Part shown: one piece after another, positions 36,842 to 55,324 of the stretch
How the letters are laid out: every line of letters starts with the position of its first letter
Position numbering within the stretch: position 1 is the first letter of the stretch
Made by a program: the position numbers and the translations under genes
The notes under the pieces: model-generated
Database searches by the model: none
Told to the model about the DNA's origin: nothing
The model's input: only the letters and a program-made list of their open reading frames with translations
Source of the DNA: an uncultured Verrucomicrobiota bacterium
GTDB taxonomy: Bacteria; Verrucomicrobiota; Verrucomicrobiia; Opitutales; Opitutaceae
NCBI GenBank assembly: GCA_903960515.1
Contig: CAJCBL010000082.1
Span: 1-55,324 of the forward strand
Direction: 5' to 3'
Length of the DNA stretch: 55,324 bases

Positions 36842-37504
36842 TCACCCCGGGCCGGCGGGGGCCTGTGGCTCGGAGGGGAACGGGGCGAACAGCGCCACGG
36901 CCTCCCCGCGCGAACCCACGTGGAGCTTGCGGTAGATGCGCTGAATATGGGTGTTTATGGTCCCCCCACTCAAGCCGAGGTCGGAGGCGATCTCCTTGTA
37001 TGCAAGTCCCCGTGCCAGTAGCCGCAGGATCTCGCGTTCCCGGGCCGAGAGGTTCTCCGGCTCCTTGCGCGCCACGTGGGGCTTCGCCTGGAACCATTGC
37101 ACTACCTTGCGGGCGATATAGATGCTCATGGGCGATCCGCCCGCGTGAACCAGCCGGATGGCGGCAAGCAAGTCATCCAGCGGCTCCTGCTTGAGCAGGT
37201 ACCCGGAAGCTCCGGCGGTGAGCGCATCGAAAATATGATCACTGTCCTCAAACACGGTGACCATCATGAACTGCGTCTCCGGCATCTGCGGCTTCAACTC
37301 GCGCACGCAGGTTATCCCGCTCCGCCCCGCCAGGTTAATGTCGACCAACACCACATCCGGGCGCCGCCGGGGAAGATCGGCCAGCGCACTCTCCAGATTT
37401 GAATATTCGCTCACCAACCGGAAGCCGTCCGCACCCGCGATCCACTCGGCAATGATCGAGCGGAGCTCGGAGCAGTCTTCGACAATGGAAACGGATATGC
37501 TCAC
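36842..37504 (-). CDS. NarL/LuxR-type response regulator
   Basis: A 220-residue two-component transcription factor. The receiver domain has Asp55 (VLVDINL) as phospho-acceptor, acidic residues Glu9/Asp10, Thr83 and Lys105 (GYLLKQE). The C-terminal LuxR helix-turn-helix (about 150-205) carries LSAREREILRLLARGLAYKEIA and TINTHIQRIYRKL. The GTG start at 37504 begins VSISVSIVED directly at the first receiver strand, and everything upstream in the frame is unconserved. It follows the histidine kinase gene by 58 bp and is its likely partner. Confidence 0.95.
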   Translation of the reverse strand: MSISVSIVEDCSELRSIIAEWIAGADGFRLVSEYSNLESALADLPRRRPDVVLVDINLAGRSGITCVRELKPQMPETQFMMVTVFEDSDHIFDALTAGASGYLLKQEPLDDLLAAIRLVHAGGSPMSIYIARKVVQWFQAKPHVARKEPENLSAREREILRLLARGLAYKEIASDLGLSGGTINTHIQRIYRKLHVGSRGEAVALFAPFPSEPQAPAGPG

Positions 37505-37562
37505 GTTGAGTCTGGTAATCGGACGTTTCGGTGAAAGGAATACTCCAAGATTGAGGCGAAGC

Positions 37563-40500
37563 CTAGCCGTGTGAACTGCGCGCCCTAGGAGTGCCGGGAG
37601 GCGCGTGCAGCGGCACAAACAAGCGCACGGAGCACCCGCCGCCGCTGGCGTTGCCAATTTCGCAGTGCCCACCGATCCGCTCCAGGCGGCGGCGCATACC
37701 CGGTAATCCGTTGCCCGTGGACAAGCGCCCCTCCTGGCGCGGGCGCTCGCCACCACCGCTTGGAGACAGACCTCGACCATTGTCGACAATCGCCAGTTGG
37801 CAACTGTCATCACTCATAGTGAGCGTGATGTTCACTATATCCGCTCCGGAATGCCGCACGGCGTTGTTGAGCGCCTCCTTGTAGGCTAGGAAGAGATTGT
37901 GGCGCACCTCCGCGCTCGGTGACCACGAGGGAAACTCCGAGGGAAGATCCATGCGGCACCGCACCCCCGCGGCACCGAGCAGATCCTGGGCGCACTTCTC
38001 GATGTAGCTCACCAGAGATTCCAGCGTGTCGTGTCGCGGGTTCACCGCCCAAACGATCTCATCCACAGCACGGGTGACTGTGCGCGCCGTCTCGTAGATA
38101 CGCGTCAACCCGGCATCCAGCCGGGGGCGATCCTGGATGTCGCGCCGGGCAAGCTCCACCAACATCGATATACGCGTAAGGGACGAGCCTATATCGTCAT
38201 GCATGTCGTTGGCGATCCGTGTGCGCTCGGAGGCGACTGCCTGCTCGCGCTCGAGAAGCGCGACCCGCCGCAACAGCCGGTAACGCGCCCACACCCACAC
38301 GCCAACCGCCACGCCCAAGAGCACACTCGCCACGGCCAAGAGCCTGAACCACAGCGTCTGCCAAAAGTACGGCAGCACCACAAAAGCCAGACTGCGCCCC
38401 TCCGGATTCCAGACGCCGTCGTTGTTTGCCGCCGTTACGCGGAATACATACCTCCCCGGAGGCAGAAAGCTGTAGACCGCGCGACGCTCGCTTCCTGCAT
38501 CGACCCACGCCGAGTCGAGTCCATCGATTTTATAGCGGAAACGCACCTTTTCCGGCACCATGAAACTGAGGCCAGTGTACTTGATCTCCACACGCCGCGC
38601 GCCGGGCCCGACTTCGATCATAGCGCCCGCCCCAGCCTGTGGAGCAAACACGCGTTCGCCACTCCTCAGACTTTCGATACACACCGGCGGAGCCTGGGGG
38701 TTGAGCCGCACCGCATGGGGATCGACCACCGCCAATCCGCGTGCCATCGGGAAGGCCAGCCGCCCATCAGCGGTGCGACAGCCCGAGGGGGACTGCGCGC
38801 TCGCGGGCTCCAGCGTTAGCAATCCCTCATTGAGCCCGTAGCTCAGGCAGTTGACCACGGGCAACCGGCCGTCTGCACACTCATTGAGCTCCCGCTTGCT
38901 CATGCGCAAAAGCCCGTCCATCGAGCTCATCCAGAGATACCCGCAGCCATCGTCCTCGATGTGGAAGATCGAGCGACTGGCGAGCCCTTGCTCCACGCTC
39001 ACGCAGGAGAACCTGCCATCCTTGAAGCGGTTCAGTCCGCCGCCGCGCGTACCCAGCCACAAGGCACCATTTCCATCGAGATATAATCCGTGAATATAGT
39101 CACTAGTTAGCCCATCCCTGCGCAGGTACTGGCGCACCTTGCCATCGCGGACAAAGCCCAGGCCCTCGCCGTTGCACCCCACCCAAATAGCCCCATCGGG
39201 CTGCTCCAGAATAGCACGTATATTAACCAGCTTTCGCGCCCCCTCGGGCTCGGCCCACTGCACTCGTCCTTGATCATACAAAGCCAAACCAAGAGCGCTA
39301 CCGACCCACAAGCCCCCCTGCCGCGCCTGTGCCAATGCAGTCGTGGCCGTGACCAGCTCACCGATACCAATGGCCGGTGCGAAGCCGCCGCCCACCGTCG
39401 AATCCAGGCCCGCCCAAGTGCCGGCCCAAAGCTCGCCACCCGGCTTCTCACAGAGCGCCCATACATAGCGGTTGCGCAATCCAGCCCCGAGGCCGAACTC
39501 CGCCCACCGCCCGTCATTAGTCATCCGATACACCCCAGCCCCCTCCGTGCCCACCCAGAAGCCACCATCGTGGGCGGGGAGAGCCGTCAGAACAGAGCGC
39601 CCCTGCCATCCATCGGGCGGCACCAACATCGTTACCATTTTCTCCTGCAACTTGAACAGCCCGGAGCTGCCGCTCCCCAGCCAGACTCCGCCCTCATGAT
39701 CCTCGCACACAGCCAACACCCAATCGGACGGCAACCCCGAGTTCCATCCATAGAGCTGTTGCCGAAGCGGGGCCCCGGGCTCGACCAAAAGCACACCCTT
39801 GTCATAGGTGCCCAGAACCAGCCGGCCGTTAGCCATCTCGATCAAGCTCGAGAGTGTTGCGCTGCCGATGTCGAGAGCTCCGAGTTGCTCGCCCCACTGA
39901 TCGGCCACTCGCTTACGCAGTCTGCCACTCGCCACAACCCAAAGTCCGCCGTCAGAGGAAGCCCCAATCCCCTGAATCAGCTCCGCATTCGGGCTCGGCA
40001 CCGACACGAGTTGCCCACGGGCAAGCTCGTACAAACGACCGCCGCAGGCGACCCAGAGGCGCCCGTCCCGCCCGCAGACCATCTTCAATATGCCCCCAGT
40101 GTGGCGGTCTTCGAGTTGCAGTGTCCGCTGGTCGCGCAACCGTGTGAGCTGACCACTGCTATCGAGCACCCATATATCCCCTACTGCATCACTGGCTATA
40201 TCCCGAACCCAGTCGCCCACCCGCACCTCAAGCCGCGTAAACACTCCGTCCTTGAACGTGCTCACAGCGCCACGCGAATGGCCGATCCACAAAGTCCCGT
40301 CTGCAGCTTCGTATAAACTCGTAACGGTACAATCATCCCAAACGGGCACACGCGAGTTATCGAAGAGGGTAAACTCGACCCCATCGTAGCGGAACAGCCC
40401 GTTGTAGGTACCTATCCATAGATAGCCATCCCGGGTTTGCTGCACCGCTACCGTGTTGGCCAACACTCCAGCTTGGTGCTGCCAATAGACGCTTGGGAAG

Positions 40501-40658
40501 GCGGTGTCGGCCGCCCGAGCGATCATGGCGGGAAGCCCGGCGACTCCAAGCGCAATACAGCGCACGAGAAGAACCTGAGCCAGCATCCACAGTGTCGCTC
40601 GTGAAGGAGCAAACAGCGGGGTGAAGAGCGCTCGAAGGCTGTTGCAAAAGCGGAACAT
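37563..40658 (-). CDS. Beta-propeller sensor histidine kinase (Reg_prop/Y_Y_Y/HisKA_3)
   Basis: A 1031-residue membrane sensor that phosphorylates its partner regulator. An N-terminal signal or anchor (about 15-48) is followed by repeated Reg_prop blades (e.g. DGYLWIGTYNGLFRYDG, DGTLWIGHSRGAV, GNGALWLGTRGGGLNRF; residues about 60-670), together likely two seven-bladed propellers. The Y_Y_Y domain (about 690-755, with LPPGRYVFRVTAANNDG) leads to a membrane helix (about 765-790), then HisKA_3 with His820 in NDMHDDIGSSL, and the ATPase domain with VDNGRGL and GNGLPGMRRRLE. Only the cytoplasmic part lacks a fused receiver. The ligand is probably a polysaccharide fragment, by analogy with hybrid sensors of Bacteroidetes. 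ATG 40658 is chosen, and 40763 is possible. Confidence 0.93.
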   Translation of the reverse strand: MFRFCNSLRALFTPLFAPSRATLWMLAQVLLVRCIALGVAGLPAMIARAADTAFPSVYWQHQAGVLANTVAVQQTRDGYLWIGTYNGLFRYDGVEFTLFDNSRVPVWDDCTVTSLYEAADGTLWIGHSRGAVSTFKDGVFTRLEVRVGDWVRDIASDAVGDIWVLDSSGQLTRLRDQRTLQLEDRHTGGILKMVCGRDGRLWVACGGRLYELARGQLVSVPSPNAELIQGIGASSDGGLWVVASGRLRKRVADQWGEQLGALDIGSATLSSLIEMANGRLVLGTYDKGVLLVEPGAPLRQQLYGWNSGLPSDWVLAVCEDHEGGVWLGSGSSGLFKLQEKMVTMLVPPDGWQGRSVLTALPAHDGGFWVGTEGAGVYRMTNDGRWAEFGLGAGLRNRYVWALCEKPGGELWAGTWAGLDSTVGGGFAPAIGIGELVTATTALAQARQGGLWVGSALGLALYDQGRVQWAEPEGARKLVNIRAILEQPDGAIWVGCNGEGLGFVRDGKVRQYLRRDGLTSDYIHGLYLDGNGALWLGTRGGGLNRFKDGRFSCVSVEQGLASRSIFHIEDDGCGYLWMSSMDGLLRMSKRELNECADGRLPVVNCLSYGLNEGLLTLEPASAQSPSGCRTADGRLAFPMARGLAVVDPHAVRLNPQAPPVCIESLRSGERVFAPQAGAGAMIEVGPGARRVEIKYTGLSFMVPEKVRFRYKIDGLDSAWVDAGSERRAVYSFLPPGRYVFRVTAANNDGVWNPEGRSLAFVVLPYFWQTLWFRLLAVASVLLGVAVGVWVWARYRLLRRVALLEREQAVASERTRIANDMHDDIGSSLTRISMLVELARRDIQDRPRLDAGLTRIYETARTVTRAVDEIVWAVNPRHDTLESLVSYIEKCAQDLLGAAGVRCRMDLPSEFPSWSPSAEVRHNLFLAYKEALNNAVRHSGADIVNITLTMSDDSCQLAIVDNGRGLSPSGGGERPRQEGRLSTGNGLPGMRRRLERIGGHCEIGNASGGGCSVRLFVPLHAPPGTPRARSSHG

Positions 40659-40784
40659 TTTGGAGGTGTAAATGGGATATTTCGGTGCCAACGACAGGTC
40701 AACGGCATTCTCGCCCTGAATCGTAATGGGCGGTACGAGCACTATTTCCCATCCGGCCCCCACCCAGGCAACTCAAGCACAAGG

Positions 40785-40821
40785 AAAAGACAAAACCTCC
40801 CGACGCTAGGCGTCGGGAGGT
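40785..40821 (-). terminator. Rho-independent terminator of the cellulase gene
   Basis: On the minus strand a 12-bp stem (ACCTCCCGACGC with complement, 3-nt loop) is followed by TTTTGTCTTTT. It separates the cellulase from the histidine kinase, so the kinase has its own promoter in 40659-40784 or relies on readthrough. That stretch holds no other feature I can support. Confidence 0.85.
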
Positions 40822-40968
40822 CCCCTATTTGGAACCCCAAAACCGGCTGCTTGTGAATCGGATGCTAACCAGACAAGCAGAGCGGCTGAGAAGAGTGGAG
40901 GCGGGGATTAGCAAAAGTCCCCGCCGTTGCCATGGCCTAGCAGTCTAGGGAATGAGCCTGTCCGGGGC

Positions 40969-43900
40969 TCACCACCAGCCCCAGGGATCGGTCCGGTCTG
41001 TGGCGGGATTGTTGGTCCAGGTGAAAACATCGTCTTCCATATGATCATTCAGCAGATACCAGCGCGCCATTGCTGCAATGTCATCGGGATAGTCGCGATA
41101 GTATTGCGGGTTGTTTTCCGGATATGCCCAGCCGGTATTGAAGCCCTTCAATGCATTCCGGATTACATCGACGCCGGTGCAGCCTGCCTCCTTGGCCTGC
41201 TTGATGAAGTGCAGGAATTTCCGAATGCCCAGATGCATGGAAATGCCAGGATCGTAGAAGTTCGGCTGATTGAGCGGATAATGGAACAGTTCAGAAACAT
41301 CGGTTTCCTCCATATACGGGGCCGGCACACCTGCAAATGCGGTGATTGCCGTTTGGATCGGTCCAAACGCGTGGGCCGATTTCCCCGGAAATCCCTCCTC
41401 AACAGCCGTTTCAACACCCGCATTGAGCGTCGACTCGCGGGTAGCGAAACCAAGGAAGAGCGCGTAAACCTTGGTCTTGTCGGTCTGCCCGGTATACGCC
41501 GAGATGGCGGCCCAGTTGCGATCAATATAGGTAAACATCATCGCCTTCACCTGGGAGCGGGTCAGCGCCGTGCTCCGAGAGATCAGATCGGGCACGCTTG
41601 TCCCCTGCGGGAAGTAGTAATCGCTGACACGCGCCGATGACGCAACCGAGCAGGTCGCAGAGAACGGACCATCACTGGACGTCACCGTAACCGTGGCGCT
41701 GCCAATACCAACAGCACTGACCAGGGCCGTGGTCGGCCCCGTACTGCTGACGCTGGCAACCGCAGGGTTGCTGGAAGTCCAGGTAACCGCCCGGTTGGTC
41801 GCGCTGGCGGGCAGGACGGCCACAGTCAAGAGGGCGGTGGGACTTCCCTCGGTGAGGCTCATGATTGACTGGGATAGCGACACCCCAGTTACCCGAACAA
41901 CAGGACCCGTATTTACCGTTACCGCGCAGGTAGCCGGAAACGCACCATCCGCAGTCTTGACCGTAATGATCGCGGTGCCGCTGGTAACCGCAGTGACCGT
42001 GCCGGCAGTGTCGACCACAGCCACCGACATAGCACTGGAGCTATAGCTCACGGCTTTATTGGTCGCATTGGCCGGCAATACCGTGGGTGCAAGCGCCACC
42101 GTCTGCCCTAGCGTGGTCAGCAACGCCGTGGACGGCGCAAGACTCACCCCCGCGACCGGCACCGAAGCCTGGGCACTATATACGGTGAAGTCGGTGGGAG
42201 TACCGGCGGGGCCGTTGGCGTTGAACCCAAGGCTGATCTTTGCCCCGGGCGCAATCGTGGCATTGAATGCCACATTCTTCGCCGTGATCTGCGAACCCGT
42301 TACAGTGTAGGTCGCGTTCCACATGTCCACAATCGTATCTCCGGTCGGTAACGTGAACTTCAGCGTCCAGCCGTGGATGGCCTGGGGGCCGGTGTTGAGG
42401 ATATCAATATTGGCCGAATAGCCGCTGCCCCAATTGTTGGTGATCGTATAGGTGACGCGCACATCCCGCAGGCCGCCACCGCCGATTTCGACCGTTATAA
42501 CACTGGTGCCAGAAGGACCATCAACGCTGGTCGCAGTGATGGTGGCCGTGCCATTGCCGACAGCGGTCACCCGACCGCTGCTGTCGACTGTGGCGGCCGC
42601 CACATTGCTGGAGCGCCAAGTCACCGTCTTGTCGGTAGCATTGGACGGTAATACAGTGGCGGTCAGCGCCACAGTCTGGCCAATAGTGGTGAGCGACGCC
42701 GTAGGCGGCGCGACAGTCACACTCGTCACCCGCACTCGGCCGGTATCGACCGTGATGGAGCAGGTGTCGGTGAAGGGACCGTCGGCAGTTGTCACAGTTA
42801 TAGTGGTCGTGCCATTGGCCTTCGCGACTACCGTGCCAGTGGAATCCACGGTGGCCACCGAAGGAATACTGGAGCGATAGCTCACCGCTTTGTTGGTGGC
42901 GTTGGCCGGCAGCACCGTGGCTGCCTGGGCCAGTGTCTGGCCAAGGCTGGTGAGTGTGGCCGTCTTCGGGGCAAGGGCCACTCCAGTCACTCGCACTTCG
43001 GGCGAGGCATTAAGCTCGACGCGGAGTCGGCCAAAGAGGCGGCGAGTACCCGCATTATTGCCCAGCAACACCTCTTGGGAGAGGCTGGTCGGGTCGTCGA
43101 TACGCTGGGCAACCGTCCACTCTACCAAATCGGTGGAGCGCTCGACAATATAGCTGACGCCAGAAGCCGGCGACGGGAAGGCGAGCGTGACGTCGCCGTT
43201 GGCGGCGATGCTCAGCGCGGGCTTCCGGTCTTCGGGCACGGGTGCGTGGGGCGCATCGCAGCCAAGTGCGAACTTGATCACGTTCGCAACATCGTCGCCG
43301 GCCGGGGAGGCAAGCGGAGCGCCTACGCCGTTGGCAATCTCGGCAGCGGTGAATACCCGAGCCTGCCACTGCGTATAGTTCTCGCGGCTCGACGCCGAGA
43401 AGAACCGGCCAAACTCCGCATTGGCCAGGGCGATCTCCGCCTGTGCCCAGAACCGGTGGTAGGCCTTCTCATAGGGCCGGTTGGCGAGATAGGCGGCCTC
43501 CAGCGCCGGGTAGTCGGGATCGTTTAGGTACTGGGAACGCATCTCGATAAACGTCACCCCGGGCTGAATCACATCGCCATTGGCCATCTTGCCGGTCCAG
43601 CCGGCAGGGATGGAGACGACCTGCTCAAAGAAGCGGCTGTAGTCCGCACGGGGTTCCACAACTGCCACACCCTTGCCGGTCGGCTCGAAGTGCTTAGTCC
43701 ACATCCGGTCGAGGATCTGCTTGGCCATATCGCGCGAAGCGGTGTCCAGCGTGCCGTAGCGCTGGGTAGCGGCGGCGTAGTAGGTCAAGGCCTTGGCCAG
43801 GGTGGCGGCGATGCCGAGATCCTTGCCGTACTTGACGATCGATACATGGAGGTTGGTGTTCGGTACCGGGCTGAGCGGAACCCAGGTGGCCGGAGCACCG

Positions 43901-46900
43901 GACCACGAGATCTCAGCGGGGATATCGAAGCTGCCGTCGGCATTGAGTTTCACCACGCTGCGCGCCCACGGAACCCACTTATCGAGGAGGGTCTTTGCCC
44001 GGAGATCGTTGCTGATATAGTAGTACTCAGCCATGCGCTCCATCGACCAGGCCTGCATGCCAAACCAGGTGTTGCTGCCCGGGTCGTGGTACACGGGATT
44101 CTCCTGATACGCCATGCCGTAGAAGGTCGGCGTGCCCGCCGGGTACGGGTCGTAGCGGCCATTGAGGCTGTTGGTCGCGCCGCCGGCTATGGCGCCCTCG
44201 GCGGATTGCAGCCACTGGTAGAACTCCAACTGGCGCGTCAGGCTCTGGCCCCAGTCGCGAGCGCCATTGAGTGAAGCGGGCTTGAGCTCGCTGGTGGCGC
44301 TGAGTGCATAGGCTGCAACCGGGTTTTGGTAGCCGAAGTGTGCATGGCTGCAACCGATGCGCCACGCCCAGCCCTGCGAAACCAGCGGACCACCCCAGGC
44401 GTAGTACCAGCCCAGCAGGTAATGGGCGCTGTCGTAGCCCGTCCCTCCGGGGCCGCTCTTGTTCTGCACGCCCAGCGGCTTGAAGTATTTATCGAACATC
44501 GACAGACGGGCGAAATCGCCCATCTTGGCGGCCTTGGCCAGCGGCAATACCGTGGACGGAGCGAGCCCTTGGTCCTTGGCGAACTGCACACCCCAATAGA
44601 TCGCCTGCACCGCGCGGGCGTCGGCGTCGGGAGCGTTGGTATAGCGCCACTGAGCCGCAGGAAGATTGCTGTCCTTCACGAAGATCTGCAGGAAGCCTGT
44701 CCCGGTATCAGCCCCCCACTTGAACGACTCCCAACTGGGATGGGGAACTGTCTCCCAAACCGACTCCTGCTCGCCGCGCTGGAATGAATTCATATACGAC
44801 GGAGTGCTCACTCCGTCGCCCTTATTGCCGTAGCCGTAGAAGTTGTCGCAGTCGAACAGCCAGTGCATACCATAGACATCCGAACCGTAGGCAGCGGTTA
44901 AATCGGCCGATACCGGGTCCTTGCCAACGGGAACACCGCTCTCCAAAGGCGCGGGATAGTTCTCCGGCAAGGCGAACTCGCCCGCATAGGTACCCGGGTT
45001 GCTCGGGTTATAGCTGCTGGTGGTAGGCTGCTGATCAGGGGTCGGAATGGCGGTGGCCTCCATCTTCGCCCACGCCTTAGACAGCGAACTCCAATCTCCC
45101 GTGATCTTGCCGTTCATGACCTCCAGCCAGATCCAGTACGAATAGGCCTCGCTGGTGGTCTCATGTCCCTGGTCAGGCGCCTCACAAATCAGCGTTTCTG
45201 CGCTATGATACGGCACTCCATCCCTGCTGAAATAGCCATTGGCCGGATCCATCAGCTTGTTGCGCAGCGTGATAAAACGCTGCGTATAAGCGGGCAAGGT
45301 ACTGGCCTTGACGGTGATCGTCACCTTAGCCGTATAGTTGCCATAATCGGTCTTCACCGTGATCGTCGCCGTGCCCACCGAGGCACCGGTAACAACTCCG
45401 GTATTCAGCCCAACCGAGGCCACTGCGGGTTTATCGCTACTCCAAGTCACCGTCTTGACGGACGCATTCTCCGGCAAGACCTTCGCCAGCAAGGTCGTCG
45501 TGGCACCCACCTCAACAAACGCCGTTTGAGGCGACACCGTGACTCCAGTCACCGGAATACTGTAGACCTCGACGCTCGCATATTTGCTATAACCTCCATC
45601 CTCAGTGGTCACGGTGACCCTGGTCGTGCCAGCAGAGACGCCGGTCACCTCGCAGGTCGCGCCACTAGCGGTCCCCACAGCCGCCGTCGCCGGAGTCGCG
45701 CTCGTCCACATGACCGTCTTGTTCGAAGCATTGTCCGGATGCACGGCCGCAGTGAGCGTAGCAGTTCCGCCTACGGGAATCCGCACAGTGAGCGGCGCCA
45801 CATCGACCCCATTCACCCGCACTGAATTGTCAACAAAGGTCGCTGCAAGGGTGTGATTGCCCGACACATTGAGGAACGTATAAGGCGAAACAACCGGAAC
45901 GGTGGCGCTATCCACCCGCAAGGAGTTGGTCGTAAAGCCTGCATTCGGCCGGATCTCAAACCCGGCATCGGCATTGGCCGGTACGGAGACCGCTCCCACG
46001 ACCGCTGTGCCGTTGTAATAGATCGCGCCCCCGGCCCCAGCGGAAACTGTAACGGTGTAGGTCGGGATGCTGTTCCTGCGGGTGAAGGCTATGGTCGAGA
46101 CATTGATGTTGCCACGGTCGAAATAGAGACGGACAACCTGCAGCCCCGCCGGAATCGGCAATCCCGTAGCCGTCAGCACCCGGTAATCTCCCCAACCGGA
46201 AGTAGCTGGGGCAACCACCACGGGGGTGGAAACGCCATTGCATTCAAAATGAAACGATCCACCGCTCGCGATGCCGGTTGCATAGTTCAGCGCAACATCG
46301 AAGGAGCCGCTGGCTGCGGTGTTGTTCACTGTATACTCAAGCCACTCGCCGGTGAGCACATAGCCGATATTGCTGGTCCCTTCAACATCAACACCCTCTG
46401 TCTGTCGGGCATTGCCCGTCTTGGGGCCCTTGTGAGCGGCATCCAGGTCATGATAGGCAACCAATTCGCCGCCATTGTCGAAATTTACGGTGCTCAACGC
46501 AGGAGACTGCGTGGCGCCAACCACCGCGGGCAACGCATACGCCGTCCCGCCAAAAGGAGACTGGGCGGGCATGGCCGCCACCACTTTATAGGTGACAGGC
46601 AAGGATGTGGCCGTAGCCCCTGCACTATCTGTGGCCTGAACTGTGACTACATAGTCCTTGGGCGCGGTGGGAGTCCAAGTGAACGAATAGGGTGCTGCAG
46701 CCGAGGATCCGACCACCACTCCATCCACCAAGCACTTCACCGAGGAGATCGTGCCATCCCTATCCACCGCAGTGCCCTTGATGGTAATCGGAGTATTTGG
46801 CAGGAAATAGGTCCCATTCAGGGGAAAGGCAACGCTAGCGGCCGGCACCCAGTTACCGGACGAACTCCACGTATCTGCTGGCGTTGAGAGAAGGGTCTTA

Positions 46901-47922
46901 ATCCAATCGCCTTGGGCATTCGTATTGTTCCATTGCATTAGGGAACCGGAACCCGGCACCAACGTTGCTGCCGTTTCCGCTTTGTCGCAATAGCTCCAGT
47001 TGCACCAACTGAGCTTGTTCTCGCGCATGAACGTGATCCACTTGTTGGTCTCCGGCACGTCGTTGGCGCCCGTTCCACTCGCATCACAACTGCCCCACTC
47101 TGTCATGAAAATCGCCAGTCCTTTGCCCAGCGCATAAGTAACATTGTCACGATAGTCCTGCTTATGCGAAGCCGCATAGAAATGGAAGGAATACATCAAG
47201 TTTGTGACACCAGTGATCGGAGAATCGGCCGCACTCCGGACATCCGAGCTCCAGGTGGGGTTGCCGCAGATGATGATCGTCGATGGATCATTGAACCGGA
47301 TAAGCGGAATGATCACTTGTGCGTAGGTCTTGACCTTGGCCCAATCCGTCGAACCGTTGGGCTCATTGCAAATCTCGTACAGCACATGCTTCTTGCCGGC
47401 ATGTTTGGCGGACATATACGTCCAAAACTCCTTGGCATGATTAATAAAGGCGGGGTCCATCGGATCACCCGGCGTAAGCACATGCCAGTCGATCATACAA
47501 TAGACTCCAAGCTTTCCGCAAATATCGACAAGGTTATCCACATACGACTTCCAAAACGCAGGATTGCCTTCATACCCATTTGCGGTCGGGTCATTGCCAT
47601 CGCTCGGATAGACCGCTATGCGGAACACATCGATCCCCCAAGTGTTCACCATCACGCTCAGTGAATCGAAATTGTAGTCCTCGGTCCACCAATTGATGCC
47701 GTGGGAGCTCATCCCCCTCAACTGGACGGGGGTACCGGCTTCATTGACCAACTGGGTCCCGACGATGTGTAATTTTCCATTAACCGCCACCGGGGTCTGC
47801 GCGTTGGCAGAGCCGCAAATCGCCGCTACGAGGCATATTGATAGCAGGGTTTTGGCTATCAACTGCGAACCCGAAACCCGCGTGGATCCCCACAGATCCC
47901 GAAAGTGAAGTATATTTATCAT
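40969..47922 (-). CDS. Multimodular cellulase: GH5 + CBM6-like + GH48 + CBM2 + Ig-like modules + C-terminal lysozyme-like domain
   Basis: A 2317-residue secreted enzyme from the ATG at 47922 (signal MINILHF... to ANAQ). Order: GH5_2-like endoglucanase (about 45-340; acid/base Glu187 in YEICNEPNG, nucleophile Glu275 in FMTEWGSC); Ig-like (about 362-450); CBM6-like module (about 478-612, EGVDVE and GEWLEYTV); InlB-like repeat (about 613-690); two Big_2 modules; GH48 processive cellobiohydrolase (about 880-1510; [15 protein letters not shown] with Glu921/Glu925); Fn-like strands; two Big_2; CBM2 (about 1815-1912, three exposed Trp); two Big_2; and a C-terminal domain (about 2100-2317) with lysozyme-like motifs. 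The protein would bind and degrade crystalline cellulose both from ends and internally. It has no PEP-CTERM tail. A weak promoter (TTGGGC-16 bp-TATACC at 47931-47958) would make the mRNA nearly leaderless. An upstream ATG at 48012 is less likely because it gives no signal peptide. Confidence 0.93.
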
Positions 47923-48383
47923 TGTAGTTAGGTATAAGGAAATTTTCTCGCTGCCCAATATCCACCAAGCTTCATCCTCTAATGGCCCAGCGCCCGATAG
48001 GGGCTGCCGCATGGCATCGAGCTAGACAAGAGCGCTCCGCTGCCGCCCACTGGCCCGATTCGTCCCCGCGCGAGGGCCACCGCTTCACGCCTCCAACAGT
48101 ATCACGCCTGTGGCGGTTCCCGGCTCGACCGTCCTCCGAAACCCACAAAGGAAGATTCGCCACGGAGCTCCAAACAGCGCCCCCTGCCACGTGGGCAACG
48201 CTGGGCGTCCAGTATACATGGGGCAATATCACCACCGGGATGGTCTCGCAGAATTTGGGCACGGAGGGGCTAGGATGAAGTGGGGCCGACTTAATGGGGT
48301 TTGTACGCCAGCTAGCCTCGGGTAAGTGCTCTATGGCGCTGACGGAGATTACCACGCCCCCCGAGATCGTCATGTCGTGAGAA
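47923..48383. other. Divergent promoter region, cellulase and 48384 gene
   Basis: About 460 bp between divergent starts. A 16-codon open frame (ATG 48332, MALTEITTPPEIVMS) ends 19 bp before the next gene and may be a leader peptide or part of a frame-shifted N-terminus. Open frames on both strands at 47972-48373 look like chance. No palindrome or riboswitch is evident. Confidence 0.3.
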
Positions 48384-48758: not shown

Positions 48759-49577
48759 ATGTCCCTGATACACGAACTTCTCAAAGCCCGCTACGGCGCG
48801 GATATCCCCAACGTGGGCGCCAACGGCAACACCACGGCCGCTACCCTCATCAACCACCGTTCCGTACGAAACTGTCTCCCCGACAAGCTCGACGCCGGCG
48901 TGCTCGAATTGCTGGTGGCCGCAGCGCAATCGGCCGCAACCGCCTCCAACATCCAAGCATGGAGCATGGTCGCCGTGGAAGCCCCAGCCCGCGAAACTCG
49001 GCGGGCCACCCTCGCGCGCAACCAGGCCCACATCATCACGGCTCCCTTGCTCCTCGTGTGGGTGGCGGACGTCTCCCGGCTGCGCCGCATCGCCAGCCTC
49101 CTGGGTGAAGCCGCACCGGAGCTCGACTTTCTGGAGTCATTCCTCGTGGCCGTTACGGATGCCAGCATCGCCGCCCGGAGCGCCGCGACTGCCGCAGAAT
49201 CCTTGGGGTTGGGCACCGTGTACAGCGGAGCCCTACGCGACCAACCCGAGAAGGTCGCCGAGGAGCTCAAGCTCCCGCAAGGCGCCTTCCCCCTGTTCGG
49301 CCTGGTGGTGGGCAAGCCCGCCCCGGCGAAACCCTCCGCCGCCAAACCCCGCCTTCCCCAGTCCGTAGTCCCCCACCGCGAACAGTACTCCACTGCCGGC
49401 GAAGAAGCCGGGATCGCCGCCTACAAGCCGCTGATCCAAAAGTTCAACACGTCTCAGAACCTGCCCTTCATGGACTGGAAGAGCCTGCCCGTAGGCCACG
49501 TGAAGAACGCCGAGGTGCCCGGCGGGCGGGCGCGCCTGGTCGAATCGCTGAGCAACCTCGGCTACACCGTCGACTGA
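48759..49577 (+). CDS. NADPH-dependent nitroreductase-like flavoprotein (NfsA type)
   Basis: A 272-residue FMN-dependent oxidoreductase of the nitroreductase superfamily, NfsA/FRP-like. LINHRSVRNCLPDKLDAGVLELLVAAAQSAATASNIQAWSMVAV (about 30-72) gives the family signature: the R-S-x-R FMN site and the NxQAW motif. SIAARSAATAAESLGLGTVYSGALRDQPEKV (near 130-160) and LFGLVVGKP complete the fold. It would reduce nitroaromatics, quinones or FMN with NADPH. The last codon is the TGA that is also the first bases of the repeat element. Confidence 0.92.
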   Translation: MSLIHELLKARYGADIPNVGANGNTTAATLINHRSVRNCLPDKLDAGVLELLVAAAQSAATASNIQAWSMVAVEAPARETRRATLARNQAHIITAPLLLVWVADVSRLRRIASLLGEAAPELDFLESFLVAVTDASIAARSAATAAESLGLGTVYSGALRDQPEKVAEELKLPQGAFPLFGLVVGKPAPAKPSAAKPRLPQSVVPHREQYSTAGEEAGIAAYKPLIQKFNTSQNLPFMDWKSLPVGHVKNAEVPGGRARLVESLSNLGYTVD

Positions 49578-49716
49578 GCCGTAACCATGCAACCGTACTG
49601 CTTTGCGCTCTGGCAGTGCACAGACTCCCGTGTCCGCCGTAGGCGCGTGCTTGCACGCGAACTGCGCCCTGAATCGCGTGCAAGCACGCTCCTACAACTA
49701 AATGGTTACGCCTGAG
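49576..49716 (+). repeat. Mobile-like repeat family, copy 7 (full length) with REP hairpin
   Basis: It starts TGAGCCGTAACCATGCAA and ends AATGGTTACGCCTGAG, so CGTAACCAT/ATGGTTACG are terminal inverted repeats. The internal hairpin is at 49639-49695. Its first TGA is the stop codon of the nitroreductase-like gene. It is the best match to 10784-10920. Confidence 0.85.
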
Positions 49717-50496
49717 TGCTGCTACCTCTTGAATCCTCTCGGCAAAACAGCACTCGTGGCACTCGGCCCGCGACAGGCTTGCATCGGCAGCATCCCGCCA
49801 CGGGGAGCACCGGCAGCACAGGTCGACGGCCTGCGCGGACGCCGCCGGGCCTTCGCTCCACCTCGTGCCGGAATGCACTGCGGCCCGCCGCCGACCGCTG
49901 CGGCAAAACGCGGCGCTCCTGTCCCGCGCCGCGGTCAGTCCGCTTCCCCACGCGCTCTCGCTTGCCGCCCGCCTTCGCCGAGCCTTCGGCGGGCACGCCT
50001 ACGCTCCGCGTTCTGCGCGGCGCTCCCGGAGTCGCTGCGCTGCGAGCGAGGGCCGCCGCTCGCGTTGCTCGCCTTGCGCCGGGCCTCTAGCCCCCGGGGC
50101 GAACCTCGGCACCAATCAGGTCGCCTATCTGCCGCTTCGAAGCGGCCCTATCCCGGCACAACGTCCGTCCCCTGGTTGGTGACAGGCGCAAGGCCCTAAG
50201 GAGATCTTTGGTGCCAGGAGGGCGCAGTAACGCGGCAGGGAAAGCGATGGCTGCGAGGCACCCGAAACAGCCAAGCTGCTGATAGGAATCCCGATTATCA
50301 ACCTGTAGCGACCGGATAGGCATGATACACTCGATCCTCGCCGCTTCCTCTCACCGGAATCGCGAGCAAGCCCTCTCCTACTCGCGACCCACTCGACGAC
50401 CCCGCCCGCAGCCTCAGGAGCGCGCTTGCACCCGCCTGCGATAGCGTAGTCACAGTCAATCTACCGGGTTCGATCCAGTGATACCGCTGGGCTGGG
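49717..50496. other. GC-rich intergenic region without a convincing gene
   Basis: About 780 bp. Stem-loops include GCCCGCCTTCGCCGAGCCTTCGGCGGGC-like pairing near 49968-49995. A lone REP arm (AGGAGCGCGCTTGCACCCGC) lies at about 50416-50440. Open frames on both strands appear to be GC-bias artefacts: they overlap one another and show no conserved motif. It could hide a structured RNA, but I cannot name one. Confidence 0.35.
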
Positions 50497-53445
50497 CTAC
50501 GGGGTTGGCAGCGCGGCGATAGCAAGGGCCTGGTTGGCATATTCCGCAGGGGTGAGTGCTGTATAGCGCCAGCGCGACACCTCGATCATCATCGGTTCCA
50601 GCGGGACATCATGCTTCCCATTGCCGCTATTCTCCGCCTTCAGATTGGTGTGCAGGCCCCAAAGACGGGTTGGCGCACTATATACACGCGTGGCAAGCCA
50701 TGGCTCGCAGGCCACTTCGCTCTCGAACATCGCCACCATCGAGCCGCGGATCGCCAGTCTTGCCATGCCAATCGTCCAATCCTCGGACATGCGGGGGAAA
50801 TTATGCACACCGCCACTGCTCTGGTAGCCCAGCGTCTCGTAGGTGAGCCAGTCGCCTGTGCCATCGGGGTGCGCGGGAGTCACGGGGTTCTCTCGCCTCC
50901 TCGGGTACAGGGCTGAAGTGGTCCGCACTATACCCTGCAGGAGGCAGGAGGAGATTTCCGTGTCGGCACCCGGGAACTTAATCTGGCGCGCGGGAGCCCC
51001 GGCATACGATGCTGTGCCGTACTGCGTCGGGGCGCTCGTATAGGAACCCTCGGTAGGCATACGCCCGGCATATCGATTATTGGTAATGCCGTCACAATAA
51101 TTGCGCGCACTCGGATCGATGCTCATCCAACTGGAACTCCACGGGCTGCTCCAAACCGCATTCGCGCTGAGCGAATCCGACCATCCCGCAGTCTGGACAT
51201 ACGAGGTATCATACACCGGCTGAGAGAGCACCGTAAGCGCATCGGCCATGATATTGCAGAGATACTCGCTCGTGAGATCCGGCTGCGTAGAGCTGGTGGT
51301 GCCGATCAAGCCGTCCGCGTTGAGGTGGCCGAAGATGTAAGCGGCGTCGTTGGTGGCGATGCTGCATCCCGTCCGGCCCGTGGCACTGAGCGATGCGACC
51401 GGCCCGCGGCCGTTGAGAATTCGTACGCCCGAGTCGATGCGAGTGCGAACTCCGGCGTCCGTAGAGCGGTCCTCGGCGCCGACCGAATGGATATAGATGG
51501 CGATCCCGTCATACCAAGGGTCGGTGAAACCGCCCTGGGTGAGAGGCACCGGAGCTACACCGACACCCGTGGCCTTGTAGATTTTGAACGGGTCTGAGAC
51601 CGTCCGCCCTGCCCCATCCACGGGGAAAACGGTATAAACATAGGGGAATGCCAGCGTCCCCAACCCCGTCCTTGGCCCGAGGGCGACTGTCGCCGGAGTC
51701 GCACTCGAATTGAGGACATTCTGCGCCCAATTACCGGCATTGAGAACATCCGGATTGTAGATGCGCGTGCTTGACGTAGAGCTGTATAATGTTCGCTCTA
51801 CTGCCAAGCGGAAGCGGATCATGTCGAAATCGATCTTCGAAATGGGCCGAGGCGCAAACGCGACTACATTGCGATGCGTCGCCGGAGTACCATAGCCATT
51901 GCTACCGTCCGCCCGGCGGAGATCAAAGAAATAGGCTTCCTTGAAGTCTGTCAGCGTGCGTGTTCCCGTCTCGTAAGCGGTGGTCAAAGGCCACCGATCG
52001 GTCGCGGAGGTAACGCCAAAGTTGGGGGTTACGCTGGCGTTGGGGGTGACCGTCGCGTAGTGCGGTTGCGGGCTATAGCCGGCTTCCCCGATTAAGCCGG
52101 GGATGCGCAGTACCTGATTGGACCCGATGGCCGTCAAATTCGTAAAACGATTCGGAAGCGCATTTACAATGGCAGAGCGTTCCCCGTAGGTGGGCTGCCC
52201 TGGGAGCACGATTTCGGTCAAGGCGTTTGTGGTTGTCGTGCCGGTCATCGTAGTGGTGTTCAACCAGCATCGGTAGGAGTAAGATTTCATCAATACCGTG
52301 CTGCCATCGGGCTTGATGCCGTTCCGATCAGCCGGGGTGGGATTGACAATAATATAGAGACCGGCGAAGCGTGAAAACTTGGCCTGCACGACCCCTGGAC
52401 TGTCGGACACCAAGGCCGGCTCCACGGTGACGCGCGCCGCATTATGGCGCCCCGCAGTAGCATCCAGCACACCCGGGGGCACGATGACCGGCACCGCATG
52501 GGCGCTGGTGCGCAGGTTTCCGGCGAAATTGTTGGTGGCATAGGAACGGAATGCCGCGATAGTCGCCGTGGTCTCGGGGCCGGTGGCGTTGGTGCTCATC
52601 GTGTGATCGCTATAGAAACCGCTGCCGCTACGCACGTCTGTCGCCGTACCCGTAGGATTTTGGAAGAGCAGAGGGCCGGTGCCACCAGGGTCGGCGACCA
52701 TATCAGCCATACCCATATTCCTATAAATAGCCCCGAGTTTGGTATTATTGGCATAGAAACCGCACACGGCCGTCACCCGGTCCTTGAACTGCAAGGTGTT
52801 GTCCCTACCAAACTGGTTCCGTGCCGCCAAGAGGCCGTTTGTATGAACCGGGCCTTCGATGACCATGTCGGCTCCCGGGCCTAACTCCAAGGGCATGTTG
52901 TAGAAGATCGCGAATTGGTAGAGCGGAATCTGCGCGGCGGACAGTTCCTGCAGGGTGTATGCTGTATAGGGCCCAAGCACAGGATGGGAAAGCGTCGCTT
53001 TTCCGATCACCGGCACCTTGCTGGTGATCACGCTCAGCCCACGATACGGATTACTCGCATTGGCCGACAGGAGCGGATCGACATACGTAAGCGCAGTCGA
53101 TGAGGTGAGGCCCGCATGCACTTCTACCACCCCGGCCCCATACTCGGTGCTCAGGACGGAGGACGCCGGAGGGAGATAGATCGGGTTGGCCCCGGAGTAT
53201 TGAATCGGGCTGGAACTACGAAGGCGATAGAGTTTGGTGGAGATCTGGGCCGCGCCATAATTCACCAGATTCTCCGCCATGTTGCGCGCGGCCAGCACCT
53301 GTCGCTCGCGCTCGTTTATGCGCCGCTCGGTAAGACTGTAGGAGAGAATGCTTGTAGTCAGGAGGGCCATAATCGCCACCAGTATAATCACCACGAGCAG
53401 CGCGGAACCGCAGATACGTTTCAAACTGAGAGAAGAAGTCTTCAT
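50497..53445 (-). CDS. Large pilus-assembly-like (PilX/Verru_Chthon A-like) surface protein
   Basis: A 982-residue membrane-anchored protein. A single N-terminal helix (residues about 14-36, SALLVVIILVAIMALLTTSIL) is preceded by a short basic leader, as in minor pilins or PilX. A very long extracytoplasmic region follows, rich in Ser, Thr, Asn and Gly. No enzyme motif is visible. The position after two classic prepilin genes and the length match the large partner proteins of Verrucomicrobia prepilin cassettes, but homology is inferred. No helix is seen near the C-terminus. The gene starts 9 bp after the upstream stop, so the three form an operon. Confidence 0.75.
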   Translation of the reverse strand: MKTSSLSLKRICGSALLVVIILVAIMALLTTSILSYSLTERRINERERQVLAARNMAENLVNYGAAQISTKLYRLRSSSPIQYSGANPIYLPPASSVLSTEYGAGVVEVHAGLTSSTALTYVDPLLSANASNPYRGLSVITSKVPVIGKATLSHPVLGPYTAYTLQELSAAQIPLYQFAIFYNMPLELGPGADMVIEGPVHTNGLLAARNQFGRDNTLQFKDRVTAVCGFYANNTKLGAIYRNMGMADMVADPGGTGPLLFQNPTGTATDVRSGSGFYSDHTMSTNATGPETTATIAAFRSYATNNFAGNLRTSAHAVPVIVPPGVLDATAGRHNAARVTVEPALVSDSPGVVQAKFSRFAGLYIIVNPTPADRNGIKPDGSTVLMKSYSYRCWLNTTTMTGTTTTNALTEIVLPGQPTYGERSAIVNALPNRFTNLTAIGSNQVLRIPGLIGEAGYSPQPHYATVTPNASVTPNFGVTSATDRWPLTTAYETGTRTLTDFKEAYFFDLRRADGSNGYGTPATHRNVVAFAPRPISKIDFDMIRFRLAVERTLYSSTSSTRIYNPDVLNAGNWAQNVLNSSATPATVALGPRTGLGTLAFPYVYTVFPVDGAGRTVSDPFKIYKATGVGVAPVPLTQGGFTDPWYDGIAIYIHSVGAEDRSTDAGVRTRIDSGVRILNGRGPVASLSATGRTGCSIATNDAAYIFGHLNADGLIGTTSSTQPDLTSEYLCNIMADALTVLSQPVYDTSYVQTAGWSDSLSANAVWSSPWSSSWMSIDPSARNYCDGITNNRYAGRMPTEGSYTSAPTQYGTASYAGAPARQIKFPGADTEISSCLLQGIVRTTSALYPRRRENPVTPAHPDGTGDWLTYETLGYQSSGGVHNFPRMSEDWTIGMARLAIRGSMVAMFESEVACEPWLATRVYSAPTRLWGLHTNLKAENSGNGKHDVPLEPMMIEVSRWRYTALTPAEYANQALAIAALPTP

Positions 53446-53454
53446 GGAACGTCC

Positions 53455-54198
53455 CTATTTACGGGGAGAGATGATGTAGTTGAAGCTGCTGCTGGAGAGC
53501 ATGTTATTGGCACTTGTGCCATTGATGATCTCAAGATTGAGAGCTACGCTGGCAAAGGCGGGAGTGGCCGCCGGGGACTCCGCCGAGAACACCGGATAGT
53601 AGTTTGAAGTGCCGTCCTGCTTGCGCCCGATCGCCGAGGCAACCAGTTGGCGATAGCCGGGCGAAGAGGCCGCATTGAGGGTGATGGCGTCCAATATTGA
53701 GGCGAGGGGGGCGCCCGAACCCGCCGCGCCAAAATCCCTCTCATAGTAGAGGATCGGGGCCTTGATATTGGGCGAGGTCGTGGCTCGATAATATATCCGC
53801 AGCCAACGGACTGTGGCGGCCGGGTCGGTCGTGAGCCGGGTGACCAGCACCAAACAATCCCCATGCGCAAGCAGTGTTCCGTAGGCATCCGCCACCGGCT
53901 GAGCAAGGCTGGACGCTGGCCACACGGTGGTGAGATCAATAGAATGGTCGAGTGCCGTATAGTCCGAGAACAAATAGAACTCGGTGGAATCGAGCGATTT
54001 CTGGGAGATATGGGCGAGGAAGTGGCGAAGTGTAGCATTCGTCTCCAAACGCTGCGAGTCCTTGCCCATCACGCGGAGGCCATATAGAAAGATCCCCAGC
54101 GCGCAGGATACGGCGAGCAGGGCTATCGACATGGCTATCATAATCTCCACCAGCGTGAAGCCCGAGTGAGGGCGGAGATCTGGATGTGAAGTATTCAT
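53455..54198 (-). CDS. Prepilin-type N-terminal methylation protein (PilW-like)
   Basis: A 247-residue pseudopilin. The prepilin leader cleavage/methylation motif is SGFTLVEIMIAMSIAL (residues about 12-27; cleavage after Gly, Phe is methylated, Glu at +5). The body is beta-rich. It would assemble into a type IV pilus-like or type II secretion pseudopilus. Its ATG overlaps the upstream gene by one base. Confidence 0.9.
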   Translation of the reverse strand: MNTSHPDLRPHSGFTLVEIMIAMSIALLAVSCALGIFLYGLRVMGKDSQRLETNATLRHFLAHISQKSLDSTEFYLFSDYTALDHSIDLTTVWPASSLAQPVADAYGTLLAHGDCLVLVTRLTTDPAATVRWLRIYYRATTSPNIKAPILYYERDFGAAGSGAPLASILDAITLNAASSPGYRQLVASAIGRKQDGTSNYYPVFSAESPAATPAFASVALNLEIINGTSANNMLSSSSFNYIISPRK

Positions 54199-54827
54199 CA
54201 GTTGAGCCTCCGGGTGCCAAAGGGAGTGCGCACGAACACCTCGCGCTTGATCACCGTGCGCACCCTGGTGCCATCGTTGAAATCATAGGCATAGACGAGC
54301 GTGACGCATTTCGCATCGGCCACATCATTGCCGGTGAGGGCATCGACCCAGATCCAGAGGGCAAGATTGAGCGCCTGTGACTTCGCCCCGGAGACACTGG
54401 AGAGGGCGAGCGGCCCGATCGTGTTCTTCTTCGCTTGATCCAGACTGCTCGTGCTCGCCGGAGCCTTCGTGGGTGCGGTGAAAGTGCTGGCGTCGATATT
54501 ATTGGCGCATTGCAACCACGTGGCCTGGTCCTGGTTGAGCCGCACCCGGATATAGGGAGCCGCTTTGGCCGCCGCCGCAGGAAACGCATCGCGGGCCGCC
54601 TGTTCGGAATCGGTCTCCGCGGCTGGCATCGATGTGTCGTAGTCGAGCATCTTCATCTGCTCGACCAGACCGGCGACCACGGTGACTGCCGCCATCTGCA
54701 TGACACTGCCCTCGGTAATCCTGCGAGACTGGATGAAGGTATCGAGAAACCCGAGCAGAACCAGGGCCATCAACAGCATCGCCACCATCACCTCGAGAAG
54801 AGTGAGGCCACGGCGTGAAACACCCAT
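54198..54827 (-). CDS. Prepilin-type N-terminal methylation protein (PilV-like)
   Basis: A 209-residue pseudopilin with the leader MGVSRRGLTLLEVMVAMLL (cleavage after Gly, Leu at +1, Glu at +5). The ATG at 54827 gives the normal short basic leader, and an ATG at 54896 would add 23 residues that do not look like a prepilin leader. It is the first gene of the operon. A hairpin-capable GGGGCGAC...CCCC region lies just upstream (54837-54868) and could be regulatory. Confidence 0.88.
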   Translation of the reverse strand: MGVSRRGLTLLEVMVAMLLMALVLLGFLDTFIQSRRITEGSVMQMAAVTVVAGLVEQMKMLDYDTSMPAAETDSEQAARDAFPAAAAKAAPYIRVRLNQDQATWLQCANNIDASTFTAPTKAPASTSSLDQAKKNTIGPLALSSVSGAKSQALNLALWIWVDALTGNDVADAKCVTLVYAYDFNDGTRVRTVIKREVFVRTPFGTRRLN

Positions 54828-55204
54828 TTCTGCGGCAAAGGGGCGACCTGTGTCGCGCCGCCCCAAAAGCTGTAGGCAAACACTTTGAGTACTCATAGTA
54901 ACAGGGGGTTGGCAAAAATGCCCGAGCATGTGGCCAAAGGACACTGGATACCGGTGCAACCGATGCACCCTCGAACCGCCGCCAGCCAGAGTCCTTTCCC
55001 TCGCATCCGCCTCTGGTGCCGCGAGGGTATGAACCCGAGCGAGGACGGAGCGGGAGCCCGAGTGACTACCAACCTGAGCACTCCCTCGGGCTGCTCGCGG
55101 CAATCCGAAACAAACCACACTAGCAGCCTGTCGGACTTCGAATTTTGTTCAAAATAGTTGCATATTTTGTTGACAGGCAACGTGATGCGGTATTTTCATA
55201 GGCC
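54828..55204. other. Upstream region of the pilin operon and left end of an IS element
   Basis: This region divides a divergent prepilin operon and an insertion sequence. The IS left end is near 55124 (CAGCCTGTCGGACTTCG), a typical terminal repeat. The pilin promoter probably lies at about 54900-55100, but no clear elements are seen. Confidence 0.4.
55170..55196 (+). promoter_or_regulatory. Possible promoter of the transposase
   Basis: TTGACA (55170-55175) and TATTTT (55191-55196) are separated by 15 bp, shorter than the ideal 17. The TATTTT ends 8 nt before the transposase ATG, so the transcript would be nearly leaderless. Confidence 0.3.
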
Positions 55205-55324
55205 ATGGCCGCCCGCTTCTTCAATCTCGACCGACAGACCCCGATGCTCCTGCCCTGCGACCTGCGCGACTGGGTACAAGAGGGGCATATCGTGCACTTC
55301 ATTCTTGAGGCCACCGAGCAGATC
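55205..55324 (+). CDS. Transposase, N-terminal fragment (IS1182/IS5-like)
   Basis: Forty residues from the ATG at 55205: MAARFFNLDRQTPMLLPCDL and then RDWVQEGHIVHFILEATEQI. The pattern (aromatic/basic start, LLP, DW...H, HF) resembles the DUF772-type N-terminus of IS5/IS1182-group transposases. It is cut by the window edge. The family name is tentative. Confidence 0.75.
   Translation, partial: MAARFFNLDRQTPMLLPCDLRDWVQEGHIVHFILEATEQI

Follow-up and report, generated by a model that had tools for sequence, protein, structure and literature searches.

The locus described here raises the question of what a chain carrying several cellulase domains would do in a bacterium of the Opitutaceae, and from which sources its parts were brought together. 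GH48 commonly serves to mark organisms that truly degrade crystalline cellulose, GH124 is best known from cellulosome-bearing clostridia, and the host group is, to our knowledge, not known for attack on crystalline cellulose. The window, meaning the whole stretch of DNA that was analysed (55,324 nt, contig CAJCBL010000082.1 of the uncultured Verrucomicrobiota assembly GCA_903960515.1), contains one gene in which both families occur together with GH5.

Domain organization of the cellulase chain

The gene occupies an unbroken frame (Table 1), for which position 47922 (Met31 of the longest ORF), the start taken in an earlier sequence-only reading, is likelier than 48012, the signal-peptide-like stretch following directly on Met31. 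Domains were called with Pfam profiles at their curated cut-offs, and residue numbers refer to the full 2347-residue ORF. The earlier reading had placed GH5, CBM6, GH48 and CBM2 on a single polypeptide, and all four score above their cut-offs, but it had overlooked a third catalytic domain, GH124, at the C terminus. The full layout is GH5-Big7-CBM6-Big2x2-GH48-(lineage-typical terminal module)-Big2x2-CBM2-Big2x2-GH124, and the "five or more" Ig-like linkers of that reading are one Big_7 and six Big_2 domains.

Table 1. Features of the cellulase gene and its downstream flank, in window positions.
Feature	Positions	Strand	Details
Whole frame	40969..48012	-	2347 aa + stop; likelier start 47922 (Met31)
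Signal-peptide-like N terminus	47797..47922	-	Met31 to about residue 72, read from translation
GH5 catalytic domain	46981..47748	-	residues 89-344; PF00150 198 bits, cut-off 23.5; E217, E305
Big_7 Ig-like domain	46639..46845	-	residues 390-458; Pfam
CBM6 (overlaps CBM35_2)	46081..46386	-	residues ~542-644; PF03422 39.4 bits, cut-off 28.9
Two Big_2 Ig-like domains ahead of GH48	45289..45840	-	Pfam
GH48 catalytic domain	43399..45288	-	residues 909-1538; PF02011 950 bits, cut-off 25; acid E955, base D1129
95-residue module, usual C terminus of other lineage proteins, internal here	43012..43296	-	
Two Big_2 Ig-like domains	42478..42990	-	Pfam
CBM2	42181..42459	-	residues 1852-1944; PF00553 91.1 bits, cut-off 24
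Two Big_2 Ig-like domains	41608..42180	-	Pfam
GH124 catalytic domain	40972..41628	-	PF21908 223 bits, cut-off 27; catalytic acid E2193
Terminator-like hairpin just downstream of cellulase gene	40792..40824	-	15-pair stem
Two-component system downstream: Reg_prop/Y_Y_Y sensor kinase and LuxR-type response regulator	36842..40763	-	Pfam

The GH5 acid and nucleophile glutamates, reported earlier as Glu187 and Glu275, are kept as E217 (the NEP of CNEPNG) and E305 (the TEWG of TEWGS), and the domain has sequence matches in the PDB (5wh8, 6gjf, 3pzt). The GH48 domain, previously located at about residues 880-1510, is assigned by a match to profile positions 1-619 of 619, with PDB matches to Caldicellulosiruptor 6d5d, Hahella 4fus and Cel48F. 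Its acid, in the HETTSEA box that had already been noted, and its base correspond to Glu55 and Asp230 of Cel48F, and both columns are invariant across the Cel48F, Caldicellulosiruptor and Hahella GH48s in the alignment; catalytic residues are thus lost in neither GH5 nor GH48. An NCBIfam CbhB assignment was dropped (884.5 bits, far under the cut-off of 1950).

At the C terminus, the Pfam core of GH124 (Cel124_C, residues 2150-2320, window 41053-41565) covers profile positions 1-172 of 172. The domain matches PDB 2xqo with an E value of 1.8e-56, and is about 46-48% identical to six clostridial GH124s. Its catalytic glutamate (Glu96 in 2xqo) lies within an ATREST box and is invariant in the alignment of the seven sequences. 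An AlphaFold2 model built from the single sequence, to compare the domain with the lysozyme-like alpha-helical fold of the family, reached a pLDDT of 41 and was discarded.

The N terminus suggests that the chain is exported. No type IX secretion tail was found on the chain, unlike on its Bacteroidota homologues, and no dockerin was matched by Pfam, which sets it apart from cellulosomal enzymes. With three catalytic domains, two CBMs and this predicted export, it has the makeup of a CelA-like multi-catalytic free cellulase.

Integrity of the gene and of its GH124 domain

The host genome, rightly attributed to the Verrucomicrobiota by the earlier reading and belonging to the Opitutaceae, is a 5.5-Mb draft, 96.8% complete. 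The family follows from a relative recorded as of the same family, one of whose contigs is the same sequence as plasmid CP007054.1 from Opitutaceae bacterium TAV5. The cellulase gene has no DNA match among 22 relatives. Comparison with the congeners did not reveal an empty site: gene order breaks right after GcvP in congener G002, the only one in which a match allowed the contig to be traced past GcvP, and no gene of the cellulase stretch was found beside GcvP in congener G001. The GC contents of GH5 (52.5%), GH48 (61.5%) and GH124 (55.6%) are lower than those of GcvP, RlmM and a nitroreductase (66-69%), which fits a foreign origin.

The low GC of GH5 relative to flanking genes, the metagenome-style draft assembly in 379 contigs, the lack of the gene in both congeners, and Ig repeats that might mislead assembly could together point to a chimeric assembly or a contig of foreign origin, and so to a protein absent from the real organism. 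Contamination is disfavoured by the native neighbours on the contig, as GcvP shares 87% identity with that of both congeners, and RlmM is 82-85% identical to theirs at the DNA level. Misassembly through the Ig repeats is unlikely because the longest exact repeat within the gene is only 16 nt; the chain moreover contains a lineage-typical module and runs through a single 7-kb frame without a break. We therefore consider an artefact of this kind very improbable. A different doubt concerns the GH124 domain, which could be a decayed or non-catalytic passenger at the extreme end of a chain that functions only as a GH5-GH48 enzyme. In the R. thermocellum GH124 endoglucanase (PDB 2xqo, 6g1g), a transition-metal site is formed by Asp141, Gln172, Glu175, His176 and His264 (PMC6096483). 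Three of these five ligands are gone from the window domain, which has Y2162, R2165 and N2166 where Gln, Glu and His would stand; the equivalents of the Asp and of the modified His264 are retained as D2131 and H2260. However, the R. thermocellum site is remote from the catalytic centre, and hydrolysis was not affected by different metals (PMC6096483), so that ligand loss is no argument against activity. Together with the invariant glutamate and ATREST box and a score sustained across the whole profile, this makes a passenger role unlikely. The two proteins resemble each other in having the complete domain, its catalytic glutamate and the Asp and modified-His equivalents, and differ in setting: the R. 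thermocellum protein has about 350-420 residues with a dockerin-like N-terminal part (PMC6096483), whereas the window GH124 is the tail of a 2300-residue chain.

Relatives of the GH48 domain and proposed assembly of the chain

Among 387 genomes sampled from the host phylum, GH48 and GH124 were each found in a single one, in both cases in the window gene itself. As a positive control, GH124 was recovered from 6 of 58 genomes of a clostridial order; it was found in none of 395 Bacteroidota genomes, in none of 22 GH48-bearing genomes (Geofilum included), and in no viral contig or plasmid searched. Among the best 80 loci from a scan of named genomes, the nearest GH48s are those of Geofilum rhodophaeum (72% identity) and Fulvivirga marina (64%), and a Persicobacter plasmid GH48, added from a plasmid collection, is 62.7% identical. 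Since the best loci were retained, nearer GH48s are not expected outside these 80, and uncollected lineages may exist. The trees place the window GH48 beside Geofilum, within a Bacteroidota clade of Geofilum, Persicobacter and Fulvivirga (supports 100/100, 96/94, 95/91), and the domain was apparently acquired laterally from Bacteroidota. The earlier reading had asked whether it clusters with Firmicutes enzymes, as after a transfer, or with other Verrucomicrobiota. It does neither: a Firmicutes or Actinobacteria source is ruled out by the trees, and the sole other verrucomicrobial GH48 found, in a Spartobacteria MAG, lies elsewhere, so that the two share no common recent source.

The Spartobacteria GH48 (JANXZI010000751.1, L019:3138-5852) is itself part of an unusual frame, which apparently combines a complete GH48 domain, its TTSEA and APDADAR motifs intact, with an ECF-type sigma factor (Sigma70_r2, r4) and a hydrophobic segment that spans the membrane. 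It was seen on a single short contig; a cellulase domain coupled across the membrane to a sigma factor would, if true, be striking. The Persicobacter plasmid is 859 kb long and includes a cellulose cluster (CP012860.1:161944-193827) with a Reg_prop regulator, GH5-CBM64 and GH48-CBM64; it is one means by which the GH48 clade might have spread.

In Geofilum, a GH5-Big_7-CBM6-CBM64 gene stands directly ahead of a GH48-Big_2-CBM64 gene, and on the Persicobacter plasmid the GH5-CBM64 gene likewise precedes the GH48-CBM64 gene, with a Reg_prop regulator gene before the pair in both organisms. The GH5-then-GH48 order of the window chain is that of these genes, which makes fusion of a neighbouring gene pair an attractive origin for the chain. 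Geofilum, which also shares the GH5-Big_7-CBM6 order, has two separate genes with CBM64 and type IX tails (Por_Secre_tail) and no GH124, while the window chain is one gene without CBM64 or such a tail. Alternatively, GH5 and GH48 may have arrived separately and been joined within the Opitutaceae. The window GH5 is as near to PDB 5wh8 (50.0% identity) as to the Geofilum GH5 (50.3%), and the Persicobacter GH5 is unrelated to it (21%), which speaks for separate arrival; against it stand the identical GH5-Big_7-CBM6 arrangement in the gene immediately ahead of the Geofilum GH48, and the presence of a GH5 gene before GH48 in Persicobacter also. We give separate arrival a probability a little short of even.

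A further possible trace of assembly is the 95-residue module behind GH48. The host's own genome has 13 matches to it, the window copy among them, and six relatives have matches as well. Of 12 other proteins inspected, 10 carry the module at their very end, with 0-3 residues left ahead of the stop codon, whereas about 680 residues follow it in the window chain. As the module usually ends proteins, the Big2-CBM2-Big2-GH124 part looks like a later addition to a chain in which GH48 was once terminal, a suggestive reading that is weakened by the two of 12 proteins in which the module is likewise internal.

Gene neighbourhood and proposed function

Terminator-like sites in the region are no more numerous than in shuffled sequences, and the stem of the hairpin in Table 1 is by far the longest of them. 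This hairpin separates the cellulase gene from the two-component system on its downstream side, a possible regulator of the cellulase, judging by adjacency. The sensor kinase and LuxR-type regulator have a paralogous pair in the same genome (71%) and are matched at 68% in a congener; a likeness of the kinase to the Geofilum Reg_prop protein was set aside as generic (23%). On the other side of the gene, nested inverted repeats at 49573-49717 (22-nt arms 95% complementary, with outer 16-nt arms) are REP-like, and comparable copies exist at other sites of the genome as well as in a congener. A 982-residue protein without a Pfam match and two pilin-like (N_methyl) genes are encoded at window 50326-55127; this segment recurs in the same genome at C185:17463-22214 with 88% identity, and one congener matches it at 65%. 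At 55120-55324 begins a repeat that is present, with 98-99% identity, at the ends of about ten of the genome's contigs, and whose frame (MAARFFNLDRQTPMLLPCDLRDW...) resembles the start of a transposase, so that it is probably a multi-copy insertion sequence.

We consider it likely that the gene encodes one exported multi-catalytic cellulase, whose GH48 came laterally from Bacteroidota and which probably received its GH124 block once GH48 had gained a host-type C-terminal module. The domains, the catalytic residues, the GH48 phylogeny and the rarity in the phylum are observed, and from them we infer export, activity, synergy and the order of assembly. From knowledge of the families, GH5 would make internal cuts in accessible cellulose chains, GH48 would thread chain ends into its tunnel and processively release mainly cellobiose from the reducing end, and GH124 would make another kind of internal cut. 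CBM6 and CBM2 would hold all three enzymes on one fibre by way of the flexible Ig linkers, and the domains could thereby assist one another, as in Caldicellulosiruptor CelA. Such a chain could be what the sequence-only reading called a complete crystalline-cellulose machine.

That reading had also described GH5-GH48 fusions as typical of Caldicellulosiruptor, which holds in part: the well-known enzymes are GH9-CBM3-GH48 and GH10-CBM3-GH48, but GH12-GH5-CBM3x3-GH48 exists and, like GH10-CBM3-GH12-GH48, has three catalytic domains (PMC7142884). Like CelA (GH9-CBM3x3-GH48) and GH12-GH5-CBM3x3-GH48 (PMC7142884), the window chain is a free, non-cellulosomal combination of an endoglucanase and GH48 with binding modules between. 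By contrast, its GH48 is central rather than C-terminal, it has CBM6, CBM2 and Ig linkers in place of CBM3, and it carries GH124 as third enzyme in a Gram-negative host of another phylum. The Opitutaceae genome MAG.0714 expresses a wide cellulase set, with no GH48 listed (PMC13386854). Within the open-access literature searched, neither a GH48-GH124 chain nor an Opitutaceae GH48 was met.

On balance, we lean towards regarding this as the first known natural chain in which GH48 and GH124 occur together, alongside GH5. It would be a self-contained degrader of crystalline cellulose that needs no cellulosome, assembled in the Opitutaceae from laterally acquired parts. GH48 would then have crossed from Bacteroidota into a family otherwise without it among the sampled genomes, and GH124 would be used on a free chain, outside its cellulosome setting. 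As a natural construct with three catalytic domains, the chain lets one ask which domain pairs cooperate, and what GH124 adds to GH5 and GH48.
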